In this document: positions 126-7,068 of the stretch, in pieces
How the letters are laid out: every line of letters begins with the position of its first letter
How positions within the stretch are numbered: the stretch's first letter is position 1
Source of the DNA: Bryobacterales bacterium
GTDB taxonomy: Bacteria; Acidobacteriota; Terriglobia; Bryobacterales; Bryobacteraceae
Reading direction: 5' to 3'
NCBI GenBank assembly: GCA_003142355.1
Contig: PLMF01000314.1
Coordinates: 19,013-26,080 of the forward strand
DNA: 7,068 nt
The notes under the pieces: model-generated
Databases searched by the model: none
Told to the model about the DNA's origin: nothing
What the model saw: the letters and a program-made list of their open reading frames with translations, nothing else
Program-made: the position numbers and the translations under genes

Positions 126-577
126 AATACGATGATCCCCTGTGAGGCGCTGCCCAGGCGCAGCGTCTTCGAGAAGTAGGTTGTCAATGGATCGTAGGGA
201 TACACGGCAGTGATAGTTACGTACTGCCCGGGAGCATTGGAACCGCCCGGATAGGTTACATGAACGACCAGACGACTGGTGGTCAACAGGCCGGCGCTGG
301 CGAAGTTCTTCACCACCGTCACGACCTGGGCGGGGTCGTTGCCCGGCCCGCTGGCGCTATCGACTGTCGCCCCCGCGGAACGGCTGCTGCCGTGCACACT
401 GGCGTAACGCACGCCCGCTCGCGCCGCGTTGGCCACCGTCGTATATACCAGCACCGTGCGGCCGATCTCGACCACGAAAAGAAGCATGACGGCCGTCAAA
501 ACCGCCACCACGCTAAACTCCACCATGGTTTGACCGGCACGCCCGGAAAGCCAGCTTTTTCCGGCGCCTGCGGTCAC
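122..577 (-). CDS. tadE: TadE-like pseudopilin (minor pilin of the Flp pilus)
   Basis: This is a 151-residue protein of typical TadE length. A short basic leader (residues 1-15) ends in the prepilin site G15|QTMVEF, with Glu at +5 (E20) and an aromatic residue at +6, followed by one hydrophobic helix (about 21-38). After it comes VANAARAGVRYASVHG (48-63), the TadE-family signature, and then a small Ser/Thr/Gly-rich periplasmic domain that ends in a hydrophobic tail. In characterised Tad systems TadE and TadF are cut by the TadV/CpaA peptidase and are required for pilus biogenesis; the peptidase gene is in this operon. The start is GTG at 577-575, overlapping the TGA of the PilZ-TadE gene as GTGA, with GAGG about 8 bases upstream. 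The downstream TadG-like gene overlaps its stop in turn. Function is assigned by family and motif, with high confidence for a TadE-type pseudopilin. Confidence 0.9.
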   Translation of the reverse strand: MTAGAGKSWLSGRAGQTMVEFSVVAVLTAVMLLFVVEIGRTVLVYTTVANAARAGVRYASVHGSSRSAGATVDSASGPGNDPAQVVTVVKNFASAGLLTTSRLVVHVTYPGGSNAPGQYVTITAVYPYDPLTTYFSKTLRLGSASQGIIVF

Positions 578-1473
578 TGGAGCATCCTCACGACAGCCTT
601 GCGGTGGATCCTGCTGGATGGCAGAGTAGCGCTAATACCCAGCTTTGGAAACGAGAACAGCGGGATGAAGGGCTTATAGGTGTAGGTCACGTCGACCGTG
701 GCCAGAGTATAGGCCGGCGCCTCGGGGTCGGTGAGGGCAGTGCAGCCGTTCGCCGCCGTCGTGGCATTGGTGCACGTGGCGACCACCAGGCTGGACCGGT
801 TCATGAGCGACGCAACGTCATTCGTCACGAGGGTGGTGACTTGCGCCAGCGTCGCCGGGGTCGGACTTCCCACCGAAGCGCTGGACAGGCTCATATATTC
901 CGCTCCGGCCCGAGCCGCATTGGCCACCGTGATCCAAGCGAACAGAAAGCCGCCGATGTTCACGGCGTTCACGGCCAGAACAAACACCAGTGGAACCATC
1001 AAGGCGAATTCGACCAGGGCCTGTCCTTGCCTGCGCAACGCCGGTTGGAAGGGCGCACTAGAGGCCGGTTGAGCCGGAATCGCAGCCAGGAATGTACGGA
1101 AGCTTTCCTCCTCCTTGTGGTTGCGAAAGACGAACTCGACGGCTACGCCGTCGGATCCGTGCCGGACGACTCGCGCGGGTATACAGGTCGAAACCGCGGG
1201 AGCCGTCGGGCCACCCTCCGCCATCGCCGTTCGTCCTCTTTGCAGAATCAGCCGAATGATGGTGCCGAGGTACCAGCGTTCCGGCGTGCAAATGTAGGCG
1301 CCGCTCGGGCTGATGTCATGGATGCGGCGTCCCTCCGGTGCGGAGCCATCCCAGTAATACACAAGAATCTCCGGGTGGATGCTCCTGGGCGCGCGCCTGG
1401 GGTCCTCCTCCCCCCCCCCGGCCAGCCATCCCTTCATCTTGCCGATCGCACGCTGAAACATCGCCTCACTCAC
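574..1473 (-). CDS. PilZ domain fused to a TadE-like pseudopilin
   Basis: The protein has 299 residues in two modules. The N-terminal module (about 24-130) is PilZ-like: RRAPR at 26-30 gives the RxxxR motif, and DISPSG at 53-58 gives the (D/N)xSxxG motif. In PilZ proteins these two motifs form the c-di-GMP site. A Pro/Ala/Ser-rich linker (about 133-146) follows. The second module is TadE-like: RRQG150|QALVEF with Glu at +5 (E155), a hydrophobic helix (about 157-178), VANAARAGAEYMS (183-195) and a periplasmic tail holding C234 and C244, a possible disulfide pair. By analogy with TadE, the CpaA peptidase would cut after G150, leaving the PilZ module in the cytoplasm and a mature minor pilin of 149 residues. 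The start chosen is GTG at 1473, forming GTGA with the stop of the DUF192 gene, with AGGA about 10 bases upstream. ATG at 1461 is an alternative. A G10 run interrupts codons 19-22. Binding of c-di-GMP and cleavage are inferred. Confidence 0.85.
   Translation of the reverse strand: MSEAMFQRAIGKMKGWLAGGGEEDPRRAPRSIHPEILVYYWDGSAPEGRRIHDISPSGAYICTPERWYLGTIIRLILQRGRTAMAEGGPTAPAVSTCIPARVVRHGSDGVAVEFVFRNHKEEESFRTFLAAIPAQPASSAPFQPALRRQGQALVEFALMVPLVFVLAVNAVNIGGFLFAWITVANAARAGAEYMSLSSASVGSPTPATLAQVTTLVTNDVASLMNRSSLVVATCTNATTAANGCTALTDPEAPAYTLATVDVTYTYKPFIPLFSFPKLGISATLPSSRIHRKAVVRMLQ
1410..1419 (-). repeat. G10 homopolymer tract inside the PilZ-TadE coding region
   Basis: The plus strand has ten C residues in a row, so the coding strand has ten G residues that encode Gly19-Gly21 and the first base of Glu22. 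The tract lies about 54 bases downstream of the start and just before the PilZ RxxxR motif. Tracts of this kind slip during replication. Reading the sequence, loss of one G would end translation at the TGA at 1250-1248, and gain of one G at the TGA at 1318-1316; both products lose the pilin module. The tract is also a likely place for a sequencing error. Confidence 0.9.
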
Positions 1474-2154: not shown

Positions 2155-3063
2155 TCAACTCAAAAACTGCTTAAAACCCTCTAACATAACGATCATCGAG
2201 GGGCCAAGCGTCACAACGAACAACGAGGGAAAAATGAACAAAACCAGGGGGAAGGTGAGTTTCACGGTAGTCTTCGCCGCCTGCTCCTCCGCATCCTGCC
2301 GCCGTCGCGTGCGCAGCGCTTCCGAGTGAGACCTCAAAGTCTTTCCGACACTGGTGCCAAACTTATCCGCCTGGATCAATATCGATGCCAGCGAACGAAT
2401 GGTATCGACATCGGTGCGCTCCCCAAAATTCCTCCACGCTTCGGCGCGCGGGCGTCCGGCTCGCTGTTCCAGATAGACGAGAGTCAGCTCATCGGCGATG
2501 GCCGGCTGGCTGATTTGCAGCTCCTCCGCGGTGCGCATGGTCGCCTTGTCGACGCTCAGGCCCGCCTCCACGCAGATCACCATCAGGTCCAATGCTTCCG
2601 GAAGGCCCAGACGCAACACCAACTTTCTGGCGGAAACGCGATTGTTCAGCCAGAAATCCGGGGCCAGAAATCCGAGGCCGGCCGCCAGCGCATACACAAA
2701 GAGTGGAGAGTATGCGTAAAGCTGCGTGACCGTGGCAACCAGGCATAACACAGCCGGAACCAGCACCTTGGAGCTATAGAAAATGTTGACATAGGATGGT
2801 TCGCGATAACCCGCTCTCGCCAGTTTCTTCTGAACGATCGAGATATCGGCCTGGCTCCTCGGCAGCAGTTTCTGAAATGGTTTTACCAGCTTTTCGAGCC
2901 TGGAGCCCGGGGGCGGCGCAATGGCGCCCAAGAGATTGGCGTCGTCCGCCCTGGACACCACTTGCGAGAGTCTGCGCAGCGTCGTCTGCCGGTAGAAGAT
3001 CAGGAAACCGGCACTCGACATCAGCGCAAAGGCCGCCAGAAACGCGAAGATGGCGAGCTGCAT
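2155..3063 (-). CDS. tadC: TadC, Flp pilus inner-membrane platform protein (type II secretion F domain)
   Basis: The protein has 302 residues. A hydrophobic N-terminal segment (about 4-24) is followed by a basic cytoplasmic loop, two helices (about 97-115 and 119-136), the T2SS-F/GspF-like cytoplasmic domain (about 155-260) and a C-terminal helix (about 270-292). The F-domain signature region reads LGLPEALDLMVICVEAGLSV (152-171), and the domain ends with QAAKTTVKLTFPLVLFIFPS before the last helix; both are typical of TadC. TadB and TadC are thought to form the inner-membrane base on which the CpaF/TadA ATPase acts. The ATG at 3063 is preferred over an upstream in-frame start because AAAGG lies 7 bases before it, overlapping the tadB stop (3076-3074), and because it gives a membrane segment at the very N-terminus. 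The gap from tadB is only 10 bases, so the two are probably co-translated. Confidence 0.93.
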   Translation of the reverse strand: MQLAIFAFLAAFALMSSAGFLIFYRQTTLRRLSQVVSRADDANLLGAIAPPPGSRLEKLVKPFQKLLPRSQADISIVQKKLARAGYREPSYVNIFYSSKVLVPAVLCLVATVTQLYAYSPLFVYALAAGLGFLAPDFWLNNRVSARKLVLRLGLPEALDLMVICVEAGLSVDKATMRTAEELQISQPAIADELTLVYLEQRAGRPRAEAWRNFGERTDVDTIRSLASILIQADKFGTSVGKTLRSHSEALRTRRRQDAEEQAAKTTVKLTFPLVLFIFPSLFVVTLGPSMIVMLEGFKQFLS

Positions 3064-3073
3064 AATGTGCCTT

Positions 3074-4042
3074 TCAGACGCGAATACGAACAATCCTTCG
3101 AATAATGAGGCCGCCGACAACGTCCATGCTCACGGCTGCCCAGAGCAGCTTCAAGCCGATGGGGCGCTTCCACAAGATACTCATTCCCTCGGGATTCACG
3201 AAATACATGGCCAGCCCGAGGCCCACGGGAAGCAGCGAAAGCACCCAGCCGGTCATCCTCCCTTGTGCGGTGTGAACGCTCACCTGCTTCTTCAAGCGAA
3301 ACCTCTCGCGCGTGGTCTCCGCCACCTTCTCCAGCACTTCGGCCAGGTTTCCGCCGCTTTCCTTCTGAATCAGCACGGCGGCGACAAAGATGCGAAAGTC
3401 CTGTATGGGGACCCTCTCGGTGAGATTCACGAGCGCGGTACGCAGGTCGGCGCCGTAGTTCTGTTCCTCGAAACACTTGCGGATTTCTCCGCTGATCGGC
3501 TCGCGGCAGTCCTGGGCGACCGCTCCCAGGCTGGCGATCAGACTGTGGCCCACCCGAAGGGCGCTGACCATCATACCCAGCGCCTCGGGCAGTTGCTGTT
3601 CCATCTTGGATAGACGCTTGGCCCGCCGATACCGGACGTACAGAAAGGGCAGCGGAAGAAAGCCGGCCGAGACCAGCAGCGCCGGGAGCCCGGCTTCCCA
3701 TCGCAAATACAGTACGTATCCCAGGAAGGCGAAGCCCGCGAGGGATGTCAGGACCAGGGTCCCCAGCGTCAGGGTCACACCGGCTTGATACAGGTACAGA
3801 GTGGAGGCCGGCGCCAGATTGAGTCTGGTCAACCAGTGGTTGAGCCACGGAATGGCGCTCAAACGCCGCTGCTGTTTCCGAATATCGGTGATTGCTTCCT
3901 CGTCCTGGGTGGGTGCGAACTCATGATCCAATGCGGCAAGCCTCGATGCTCCAGGCTTGGACGTGGCTTTTCCAACCATGGTGGCGGCCAATACCGCGGC
4001 CGCGAGCCCCCCCACACAGATCGACAGGACGATCAGCAGCAT
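3074..4042 (-). CDS. tadB: TadB, Flp pilus inner-membrane platform protein (type II secretion F domain)
   Basis: The protein has 322 residues. It begins with a membrane helix (about 2-23), then a charged linker, two helices (about 88-111 and 118-137), the T2SS-F domain (about 145-260), and helices at about 264-282 and 298-316. The domain contains EQQLPEALGMMVSALRVGHS (148-167), matching the 'LPeaLdlmaraLRAGhs' segment of TadB, and QDFRIFVAAVLIQKESGGNL (214-233), matching the second conserved block of the family. TadB partners TadC in the platform that couples ATP hydrolysis by CpaF/TadA to pilin movement. The ATG at 4042 was chosen because the frame upstream of it overlaps cpaF and does not resemble TadB; the Shine-Dalgarno before it is weak. 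It begins 34 bases after the cpaF stop. No truncation or missing motif was seen. Confidence 0.93.
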   Translation of the reverse strand: MLLIVLSICVGGLAAAVLAATMVGKATSKPGASRLAALDHEFAPTQDEEAITDIRKQQRRLSAIPWLNHWLTRLNLAPASTLYLYQAGVTLTLGTLVLTSLAGFAFLGYVLYLRWEAGLPALLVSAGFLPLPFLYVRYRRAKRLSKMEQQLPEALGMMVSALRVGHSLIASLGAVAQDCREPISGEIRKCFEEQNYGADLRTALVNLTERVPIQDFRIFVAAVLIQKESGGNLAEVLEKVAETTRERFRLKKQVSVHTAQGRMTGWVLSLLPVGLGLAMYFVNPEGMSILWKRPIGLKLLWAAVSMDVVGGLIIRRIVRIRV

Positions 4043-4076
4043 ATGGCACCGCTTGCTTCGGTTCCGTGCGGCATTC

Positions 4077-5357
4077 TCAATCGACCTCCACGGAGCGCTC
4101 AAAGATCTCCGCCGGCAGCAGGATGCCGGCCACACGCAACCGGTCGAGGAACTTGGGACGAATCCCGGAGGGTTGAAACGAACCCACGACCCTTCCATCC
4201 GGCCCGATGCCTTTCCTGACAAAGTTGAAAATATCGTGCATGCTGACGATGTTTTCCTCGAGGCCGGTGATCTCGGAAATATTCACCACTTTGCGGGTGC
4301 CATCGCTCATGCGCGACACCTGCACGATGACTGAAATCGCGGACGCAATCTGCTGGCGGACGGATCTCTCCGGCATATTGACGCTGGCCATGGCGACCAT
4401 GGACTCCAACCTGGAAAGAGCGTCGCGGGAGGTGTTGGCGTGGATGGTGGTCATGGAACCCTCGTGCCCGGTATTCATGGCCTGCAACATGTCGAACGCC
4501 TCGTCGCCACGAACCTCGCCGATGATGATCCGGTCCGGCCGCATACGGAGGCTGTTGATGAGAAGCTGGCGCTGGCGCACGGCTCCCAGCCCCTCCACGT
4601 TGGGAGGCCTGGTTTCGAGCCGCACCACATCCTCGTGTTTGAGCTGCAACTCGGCGGCGTCTTCAATGGTGACGATGCGCTCGGTCTCCGGAATGAAGCT
4701 GGAGAGAATGTTCAGGAATGTGGTCTTGCCGGCCCCGGTGCCTCCCGAGATCAGGACGCTGATTTTGGCCTTTACCGCGGCGGCCAGGATCTGCATCATC
4801 TCGGCGGAAATGCTCCTGAGTTTCACCAGGGTCTCCGCCGCGACGGGCCCGCCGCCGAAGCGCCGGATGGACATGCAAGGGCCGTCGAGGGCCAGCGGCG
4901 GAATGATGGCGTTCACGCGCGAGCCGTCCGGAAGCCTGGCATCGACCATGGGCGAGGATTCATCCACCCGGCGGCCGACGCGGGACACGATGCGATCGAT
5001 CACCTGCATCAAGTGCCGGTCGTCCCGAAATTTAGCGCTGGTCCGCTCCAGGATTCCATGGCGTTCCACATAGATCACGTCTTTGTTGTTGACCAGAATG
5101 TCCGATACGCTGGAATCTTTCAGCAAAGGTTCAAGGGGGCCCAATCCAAAGACTTCGTCCAGAAGCTCGCTTTCCACCCGCTCTTTTTCCGCGCCGTTCA
5201 GCGGCACTTTTTGGGCGCCAACAATCTCCTGAATGATGGTACCGACCGCGCGGCGGGCTCTGGCGTCGTCGACCGAAGAAAGTCTTTCGAGGTCGATTCT
5301 GGAGAGCAGGGTGCTATGCAGATCGGTTTTCAGTCTTTGAAAATCGAGGACTTCCAT
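4077..5357 (-). CDS. cpaF: CpaF/TadA, type II/IV secretion system ATPase of the Flp pilus
   Basis: The protein has 426 residues, a normal length for CpaF. The N-terminal domain carries [20 protein letters not shown] (71-90), the family's usual entry block, followed by [20 protein letters not shown] (138-157). The ATPase core is complete: Walker [10 protein letters not shown] (205-213), Asp box [10 protein letters not shown] (230-239), Walker B region [16 protein letters not shown] (276-291) and His box [10 protein letters not shown] (300-309). It is a hexameric cytoplasmic motor that powers Flp pilus assembly, and in some species retraction as well. The ATG at 5357 follows directly on the TAA of cpaE (5360-5358) with no gap, so the two are probably translated in tandem. 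The C-terminal part (about 385-426) is basic and hydrophobic without a known motif. No key residue is missing. The assignment is secure. Confidence 0.97.
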
Positions 5358-6621: not shown

Positions 6622-7068
6622 TCATCCTGCCAAAAAAGAAAAGAGGGTCCCGATCGCGATCGCCGGAGCGTAGGGCATGGTCCGCGCGGATGGGTTATCG
6701 AGAACCAAGCTGGGATGCGGATGTACACCCCTGGTCCAGAACGCCGAGACGAGATCGCCCGCACCTCCGAGCGATGCGCCCAGCGAGCGGTGGCATGCCG
6801 CCCAGACGAGCGCCAACACGCCGCCCGCGATGCCCGTTGCAACCAGTGCGAAACCCAGTTGCTCGGGACCGATCCACCCGCCCACCGCCGCGCACAGTTT
6901 CAAATCACCCATGCCCATCCCACGGAGCCAGCAGAGTATGCCCGTAACGGCGGCCGCGAGCGCTATGCCGCCCGTACTCTGTCCCAGACCTTGCATGCCG
7001 TAACTTGCCGTGTTCGCTATGACACCGGCGGCCAAAAACGGCAGCACGAGCCAGTTCGGGATGCGCCG
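6622..7068 (-). CDS. cpaA: CpaA/TadV prepilin peptidase (A24 family), C-terminal 148 residues; start lies off the right edge
   Basis: The visible frame begins at the window edge with RRIPNWLVLPFLAAG, the segment that in A24 peptidases directly follows the first catalytic Asp; that Asp would lie just outside the window. The second active-site motif GxGD is present as GMGDLKL (visible residues 52-58). Several hydrophobic helices flank it, and the C-terminus MPYAPAIAIGTLFSFLAG is typical of the family. The enzyme is a membrane aspartic protease that cuts the leader of Flp prepilins and pseudopilins after Gly. Possible substrates in this window are the two TadE-like proteins. The stop is TGA at 6624-6622. 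cpaE starts 40 bases downstream, without the cpaB and cpaC genes that often lie between. Family assignment is firm; the start cannot be judged. Confidence 0.92.
   Translation of the reverse strand, partial: RRIPNWLVLPFLAAGVIANTASYGMQGLGQSTGGIALAAAVTGILCWLRGMGMGDLKLCAAVGGWIGPEQLGFALVATGIAGGVLALVWAACHRSLGASLGGAGDLVSAFWTRGVHPHPSLVLDNPSARTMPYAPAIAIGTLFSFLAG

Follow-up and report, generated by a model that had tools for sequence, protein, structure and literature searches.

The 7,068-nucleotide stretch of Bryobacterales DNA analyzed here (the window; contig PLMF01000314.1) is occupied throughout by a tad (type IVc pilus) locus, whose genes lie on the minus strand according to the list of open reading frames (ORFs) and their Pfam matches. 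One of these genes encodes a PilZ domain, a putative receptor for cyclic di-GMP (c-di-GMP), followed in the same chain by a TadE-like minor prepilin, with a predicted prepilin peptidase site between the two. The interpretation that we consider moderately probable is that a c-di-GMP receptor dedicated to the Tad machine is made as the ∼146-residue "leader" of this prepilin, that is, as the N-terminal part of a TadE protein, and is freed by the peptidase. In this scheme the precursor would span the membrane by its TadE part, leaving PilZ on the cytoplasmic side, and the A24 peptidase of the locus would cleave at the membrane face, immediately downstream of the glycine. Once released and soluble, PilZ would work with the cytosolic Tad machine in response to c-di-GMP, its most plausible partners being the DUF192 protein and/or the CpaF motor, and cleavage would provide TadE with the free N terminus required for joining the pilus tip. 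Such a fusion would amount to a small polyprotein that yields receptor and minor pilin in a 1:1 ratio. The analysis establishes the domain content, a predicted fold, the conserved motifs and cleavage site, and the three covalent states in which PilZ occurs in related loci; cutting, ligand binding, and the interaction partner are inferred.

An earlier note on this DNA had described a 299-residue protein, encoded by positions 574–1473, in which a PilZ module with the motifs RRAPR and DISPSG precedes a TadE module with the intact site G150|QALVEF. Both modules are borne out: PilZ matches Pfam PF07238 (E 6.1e-06, 26.9 bits; gathering cut-off 22.5) and contains both motifs, and TadE matches PF07811 over residues 150–191 (E 4.4e-08, 33.6 bits; cut-off 22.9) with the site present, the gene being on the minus strand. 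The gene is real, but its translation start is likely to be the ATG at 1461, four codons inside the GTG at 1473, because the residue numbered 5 from the GTG is Met in 102 of 121 aligned rows (the window protein and 120 homologues) and residue 1 falls in a gap in 115 of the 121. The protein would then have 295 residues and the cleavage glycine would be G146; residue numbers given here count from the GTG (G150). On either count the leader is abnormally long, as the note had stated: in place of a short hydrophilic TadE leader there are about 146–150 residues that are predicted to be folded, as compared with 6–26 residues in the published account (PMC4471445). An AlphaFold model based on a deeper alignment, which supersedes a weak model from a shallower one (mean predicted local distance difference test score (pLDDT) 57), contains a PilZ β-barrel, a disordered linker (pLDDT <50 at 135–150), and a pilin helix spanning residues 144–198. 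The model thus predicts the barrel and helix for which the note had asked, and a fold search of the PDB gave c-di-GMP-binding PilZ domains as the solved structures nearest to the model. By sequence, no relative with a solved structure was found up to E 1 with either the fusion-alignment profile or the DUF192 protein; a single unnamed match (E ≤ 0.001) came from a library of viral structures, an NCBIfam scan gave no match above cut-off, and a plasmid search gave no match.

Among 5.8 billion proteins, 786 homologues were detected at E ≤ 1e-3, a number that, together with the presence of the gene in independent genomes, rules out chance or an assembly artifact. Among the 120 of these that were listed and aligned with the window protein, a precomputed Pfam column marks TadE in 120 and PilZ in 112. 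Gly150, Gln151, Leu153, and Glu155 are invariant in the 121 rows, and the PilZ residues Asp53, Ser55, Gly58, Arg30, and Arg26 are retained in 119, 118, 121, 117, and 105 of them, respectively. The RxxxR motif is present in 110 of the 117 rows suitable for scoring and [DN]xSxxG in 113; 106 have both motifs and 11 fail one. Conservation is low from about residue 134 through 149. Ratios of nonsynonymous to synonymous substitution (dN/dS), calculated by the Nei-Gojobori method (NG86) from three pairwise comparisons among the window and loci L001 and L002 and noisy for short pieces, indicate purifying selection on PilZ (0.22–0.34), the pilin helix (0.10–0.20), and the TadE globular part (0.22–0.24); they are 0.40–1.14 in the linker and 0.59–1.15 in the 21 residues, a short N-terminal helix, ahead of PilZ. 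Two cysteines of the extracytoplasmic domain, residues 234 and 244, are kept in 120 and 121 of the 121 rows and may form a disulfide. Many PilZ-TadE homologues have been named "Flp pilus assembly protein TadG" by JGI. It should also be mentioned that a run of 10 C at 1410–1419 (10 G in the coding strand), soon after the start of the gene, is a possible slippage site; a sequencing indel at this run was considered and rejected, since a 93% identical protein, P0003, carries the same AGGGEED residues. Neither L001 nor L002 contains eight or more consecutive G or C residues.

The relationship between PilZ and its neighbors was examined in a module-profile scan of 99 entries (the window and 98 loci, numbered L001 onward), of which the 75 with TadC (window included) were classed. 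PilZ is fused to TadE in 20 cassettes, fused to the C terminus of DUF192 in 33, free in 15, and absent from 7; the cassettes were chosen by similarity to the fusion alignment and these numbers are not prevalences. The seven without PilZ are five assigned by script together with L103 and L117, which the script left unclear and which were set by hand; L055 is classed as free, though its second PilZ copy is fused to TadE, and L096 has no DUF192 match and may be broken. The 19 short loci L012–L030 were left unclassed, and L014–L030 proved on inspection to overlap regions or loci otherwise covered. Since PilZ is not attached to TadE in 48 of 75 cassettes, its function does not need an adjacent cleavage site, and the module, as judged from its distribution, belongs to the tad locus and not to TadE, the identity of the covalent partner being seemingly immaterial. 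In the three DUF192-PilZ loci that were inspected in detail (L058, L064, and L068), TadE is a separate downstream gene with a leader of ∼29–47 residues from its first start codon, and in two loci with free PilZ (L039 and L081) a TadG-like gene sits between PilZ and TadE. PilZ is expected to be cytoplasmic in all three states, in view of pilin topology and the lack of an obvious export signal in the DUF192-PilZ proteins. The coupling of c-di-GMP to the tad locus that the earlier note had proposed is supported.

The states of PilZ were mapped on trees of the tad locus, on which changes may be gains or losses; whole-locus transfer is harmless to this inference, but exchange between loci could disturb it. 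On a first tree from CpaF, TadB, and TadC (71 rows, 1044 columns), which has long branches, no fewer than 11 changes are required to account for the four states, and 7 for the TadE-fused label, of which 5 are forced by starred branches. Under a mixture model and after removal of 10 of the 71 rows with long branches, absent or unclear states, or, in one case, a near-copy (L109, L057, L047, L051, L052, L103, L117, L055, L096, and L089), the three remaining states need 6 changes and the TadE-fused state 5 (4 forced). In an approximately unbiased (AU) test under the same model, carried out post hoc to the first tree, a single clade of TadE-fused loci was rejected (p-AU 1.1e-37).

In published work, the last glycine of the leader is critical for prepilin processing (PMC4471445), the N-terminal amine of one subunit is paired with Glu5 of its neighbor (PMC10191384), and in Myxococcus the TadE/F/G-like tip pilins, including the TadG-like KilN4, have predicted sites, with the locus peptidase being required for three of four tips (PMC12075869). 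The corresponding glycine at −1 and glutamate at +5 are intact in all 21 fused loci. They are kept in L049, although the motifs and N-terminal half of its PilZ are gone, and in the second copy of L055, in which PilZ is interrupted and 256 residues of open frame precede the site. Taken together with the published features of processing, retention of the site is most simply read as indicating that the peptidase removes PilZ and restores the free state seen in other loci. Of the proposals in the earlier note, both the placement of PilZ ahead of an intact class III (prepilin) site and the release of a soluble PilZ domain, should the site be cut, are supported.

Several observations nevertheless weigh against release. 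By the same script, the glycine and glutamate are present in 16 of 17 unfused first TadE and 65 of 75 second TadE proteins, so that retention in fused (21 of 21) and unfused (81 of 92) proteins is similar (Fisher p 0.21); the site in the fusions is kept as in an ordinary TadE, without sign of extra constraint. The TadG-like proteins of the window, L039, and L081 have the glycine without Glu+5, and the glycine alone is therefore no proof of cutting. In 5 of the 21 fusions (L007, L008, L009, L044, and L045) the PilZ profile ends 8–9 residues before the glycine, a spacing that is tight for a membrane protease and could hinder it. One or both c-di-GMP motifs are missing from 5 of the 21 fused PilZ domains (L008, L044, L048, L049, and L055). 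On the first tree, the TadE-fused state persists across a clade of eight rows, and the covalent bond between PilZ and TadE may itself be useful, as suggested by repeated, long-lived fusions. The protein might instead be cut slowly or not at all and act as an inner-membrane-anchored c-di-GMP receptor beside CpaF, TadB, and TadC, outside the pilus. This we regard as unlikely. In its favor, PilZ has repeatedly been fused to a membrane-anchored neighbor, its purifying selection is of the same order as that of the TadE globular part, it lies very near the membrane in the five short-spacer fusions, and a second TadE is available to serve the pilus. An anchored receptor would have no obvious use for the glycine and glutamate that are kept in every aligned row and every fused locus, and the 48 cassettes in which PilZ lacks a TadE anchor (L055, which also has a fused copy, among them) count against it as well.

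The earlier note had also suggested that bound c-di-GMP hides or exposes the site, so that the messenger could gate entry of this minor pilin into the pilus. In its fullest form, this proposal would have ligand binding to the PilZ leader open or close the peptidase site and thereby decide on maturation of the tip-initiating minor pilin, each cut also freeing a reporting receptor. The presence of receptor and site in one chain, with both motifs in most rows of the alignment, fits this proposal, as do the five fusions with a short spacer, three of which (L007, L009, and L045) keep both motifs. The other two, L008 (Terriglobus albidus) and its relative L044, have lost DxSxxG (the residues are EISSDK) yet retain the cut site, as does L049 with half of its PilZ gone, and the linker of the window protein is long, variable, and predicted to be disordered. 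Gating in cis is possible but is disfavored and not needed, because the same PilZ serves other loci, 33 fused to DUF192 and 15 free, without attachment to TadE; we consider it distinctly unlikely, and it is not supported as the main account. The missing motifs in the same five fused PilZ domains, and the lack of PilZ in 7 of 75 cassettes (2 of them unclear by script), would be in keeping with a PilZ part that is a non-signaling stabilizer or a relic with no role in c-di-GMP response, but such a PilZ appears improbable.

A further alternative, named in the earlier note as one that would undo its proposal, is that an internal start near codon 150 yields two separate proteins. There is a TTG four codons ahead of the glycine in the window and L001, but within the 30 codons that precede the site, an ATG or GTG with a Shine-Dalgarno-like motif occurs in only 1 of the 21 fused genes (L003), and the 21 genes have no start position in common. 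All 21 keep the reading frame through the linker, in part through selection, as a fusion was defined as one open frame. Internal initiation was accordingly rejected as a conserved mechanism, and we give it next to no credence for the window protein. We return to release of PilZ by the peptidase as the preferred interpretation, for which two targets are candidates: the CpaF motor, by analogy with the action of PilZ on PilB in type IVa pili, and DUF192, the usual upstream neighbor and the commonest fusion partner in the sample.

How widespread the fusion is could not be told in the earlier note; it is not a one-off, since it recurs in two sampled orders, the Bryobacterales and Terriglobales. tblastn confirmed 11 loci in public genomes, all labeled Acidobacteriota. 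As far as the contigs extend, 10 of the 11 have the order TadB-TadC-DUF192-PilZ/TadE-TadE, and only two TadE genes are visible in L011. PilZ and TadE form one protein in nine of the loci. In L010 and L011 the same TadE occurs without PilZ, and each has a possible start ∼20 codons upstream of the cleavage site. Matches to any part of the alignment were found in 13 of 396 genomes of the phylum and 16 of 200 of the order containing the L001 genome (both at E ≤ 1e-20), and in 80 of 298 of the order containing the L008 genome (E ≤ 1e-18), with at most 6, 11, and 8 candidates, respectively, scored per genome. PilZ and TadE were covered by a single match in 8 of the 200 and 7 of the 298 genomes. Two-piece matches were seen in genomes G047 and G205 of the L008 order, and cut, decayed, or inserted cases in G545, G488, and G453 of the L001 order; most of the remaining matches are to PilZ alone or TadE alone. 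Three genomes (G665, G670, and G762) have 7–8 separate matches each, nearly all to the PilZ part, which suggests PilZ paralogues outside the tad locus. With a DUF192-PilZ protein as the query, 2041 proteins were matched; those listed, 120 in number, span 76–100% of the query and a few bear Terracidiphilus names.

Some individual loci have unusual arrangements. L055 (4868–8325) has a tandem DUF192-PilZ-DUF192-PilZ/TadE array, in which free and TadE-fused PilZ are adjacent in one locus. The last PilZ helix seems to be duplicated before the site in L042 (7267–8277) and L043 (7021–8049), giving leaders of roughly 170 residues, and in L049 (4365–5108) a half-decayed PilZ ahead of the intact TadE site has the appearance of ongoing loss. 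In L036 (7615–10263), an 883-residue ORF joins DUF192 and PilZ through a very long low-complexity stretch, and no further tad gene was matched in its 15-kb stretch. A scan of the classed cassettes for GGDEF-, EAL-, and HD-GYP-type motifs, which is a crude test and not a domain search, gave no conserved cyclase neighbor; three GGDEF matches were in ORFs of L003, L004, and L073, the last probably a spurious frame. The ORFs in L003 (13451–15928) and L004 (13503–16016), which are from related genomes, are a few kb from the tad locus.

The gene order on the minus strand of the window is A24 prepilin peptidase, CpaE-like ATPase, CpaF, TadB, TadC, DUF192, PilZ-TadE, second TadE, and the start of a TadG-like gene, and the presence of the CpaE, CpaF, TadB, TadC, peptidase, and TadE genes identifies the locus as tad; coordinates are collected in the table. 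The CpaE-like ATPase has a weak match to a receiver domain, under the Pfam cut-off, and the match of the window DUF192 gene to Pfam DUF192 (E 3.6e-04, 21 bits) is below the curated cut-off of 27. DUF192 (UPF0127) is a usual gene after tadC in the scanned loci. In the close relative L001, a Tad domain in the TadG-like protein scores 34.6 bits (cut-off 22.3) and a Flp match is marginally under its cut-off (32.1 versus 32.2).

Table. Positions of the tad genes and of the parts of the PilZ-TadE fusion in the window
Feature	Position	Strand	Basis or remark
A24 prepilin peptidase (TadV/CpaA-like)	6622–7068	minus	Pfam Peptidase_A24, E 7.9e-15; truncated at window end
Tad motor ATPase CpaF/TadA	4077–5357	minus	Pfam T2SSE, E 6e-61
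TadB and TadC platform genes	2155–4222 (ORFs 3074–4222 and 2155–3120)	minus	Pfam T2SSF in both
DUF192 (COG1430/UPF0127) gene, upstream of PilZ-TadE	1470–1892	minus	likely start ATG at 1892
PilZ-TadE fusion gene	574–1461	minus	295 residues from ATG at 1461; 299 from GTG at 1473
PilZ domain	1087–1398 (residues 26–129)	minus	Pfam PF07238, AlphaFold barrel, PDB fold matches
RRAPR (RxxxR c-di-GMP motif)	1384–1398 (residues 26–30)	minus	sequence
DISPSG ([DN]xSxxG c-di-GMP motif)	1300–1317 (residues 53–58)	minus	sequence
Variable linker	1027–1083 (residues 131–149)	minus	low conservation, dN/dS, low pLDDT
Predicted prepilin peptidase site, G150/Q151	1018–1026	minus	cut between bases 1024 and 1023
TadE hydrophobic pilin helix, Glu+5 at residue 155	901–1023 (residues 151–191)	minus	Pfam PF07811
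TadE extracytoplasmic domain, conserved cysteines 234 and 244	577–900	minus	alignment, model
Second TadE-like minor pilin	122–577	minus	Pfam TadE; ordinary leader, 15 residues from GTG at 577

In Caulobacter, c-di-GMP alters the number and retraction of Tad pili by a route that "remains to be shown" (PMC6581867). The PilZ module found in tad loci of two sampled orders of Acidobacteriota is a candidate c-di-GMP effector for the Tad pilus, and its association with DUF192 points to a possible role of the latter in pilus control; release, if it occurs, would be a case of a prepilin peptidase freeing a folded signaling domain. Full-text search listings of the open-licence PubMed Central (PMC) literature gave no description of a PilZ-TadE or DUF192-PilZ fusion and no such use of the peptidase; in the passages of PMC7716237 that were checked, PilZ is confined to the title of a reference and no fusion is described. 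Both domains are known and are marked on these proteins in databases; what is new is the use of a putative PilZ receptor as the leader of a TadE minor prepilin.

The fusion resembles the TadE minor pilins (PF07811) of Tad (type IVc) pili in its Pfam match, its class III site with Gly−1 and Glu+5, its hydrophobic helix, and its surroundings, which include a second tadE, the start of a tadG-like gene, and a peptidase in the locus, but differs in having a predicted folded PilZ as a leader far beyond the published length range (PMC4471445). Compared with the PilZ receptors Alg44-PilZ, YcgR, MrkH, and BcsA-PilZ, the PilZ described here is distinct in that it forms part of a prepilin and precedes a peptidase site, and in its relatives it is attached to DUF192 or free within the same tad locus. 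The DUF192-PilZ proteins, named UPF0127 or PilZ domain-containing and in some cases from Terracidiphilus, share this PilZ module, likewise located after tadC, but it is joined to DUF192 rather than to TadE. The N-domains of MshE and PilB, which bind c-di-GMP directly, also couple it to a pilus motor (PMC11656802, PMC6581867); in these the sensor lies within the ATPase, whereas the tad locus encodes it as a PilZ module distinct from the motor. With respect to the PilZ-FimX-PilB system of type IVa pili, the functional analogue would be a PilZ protein that acts on the machinery of a type IV filament.
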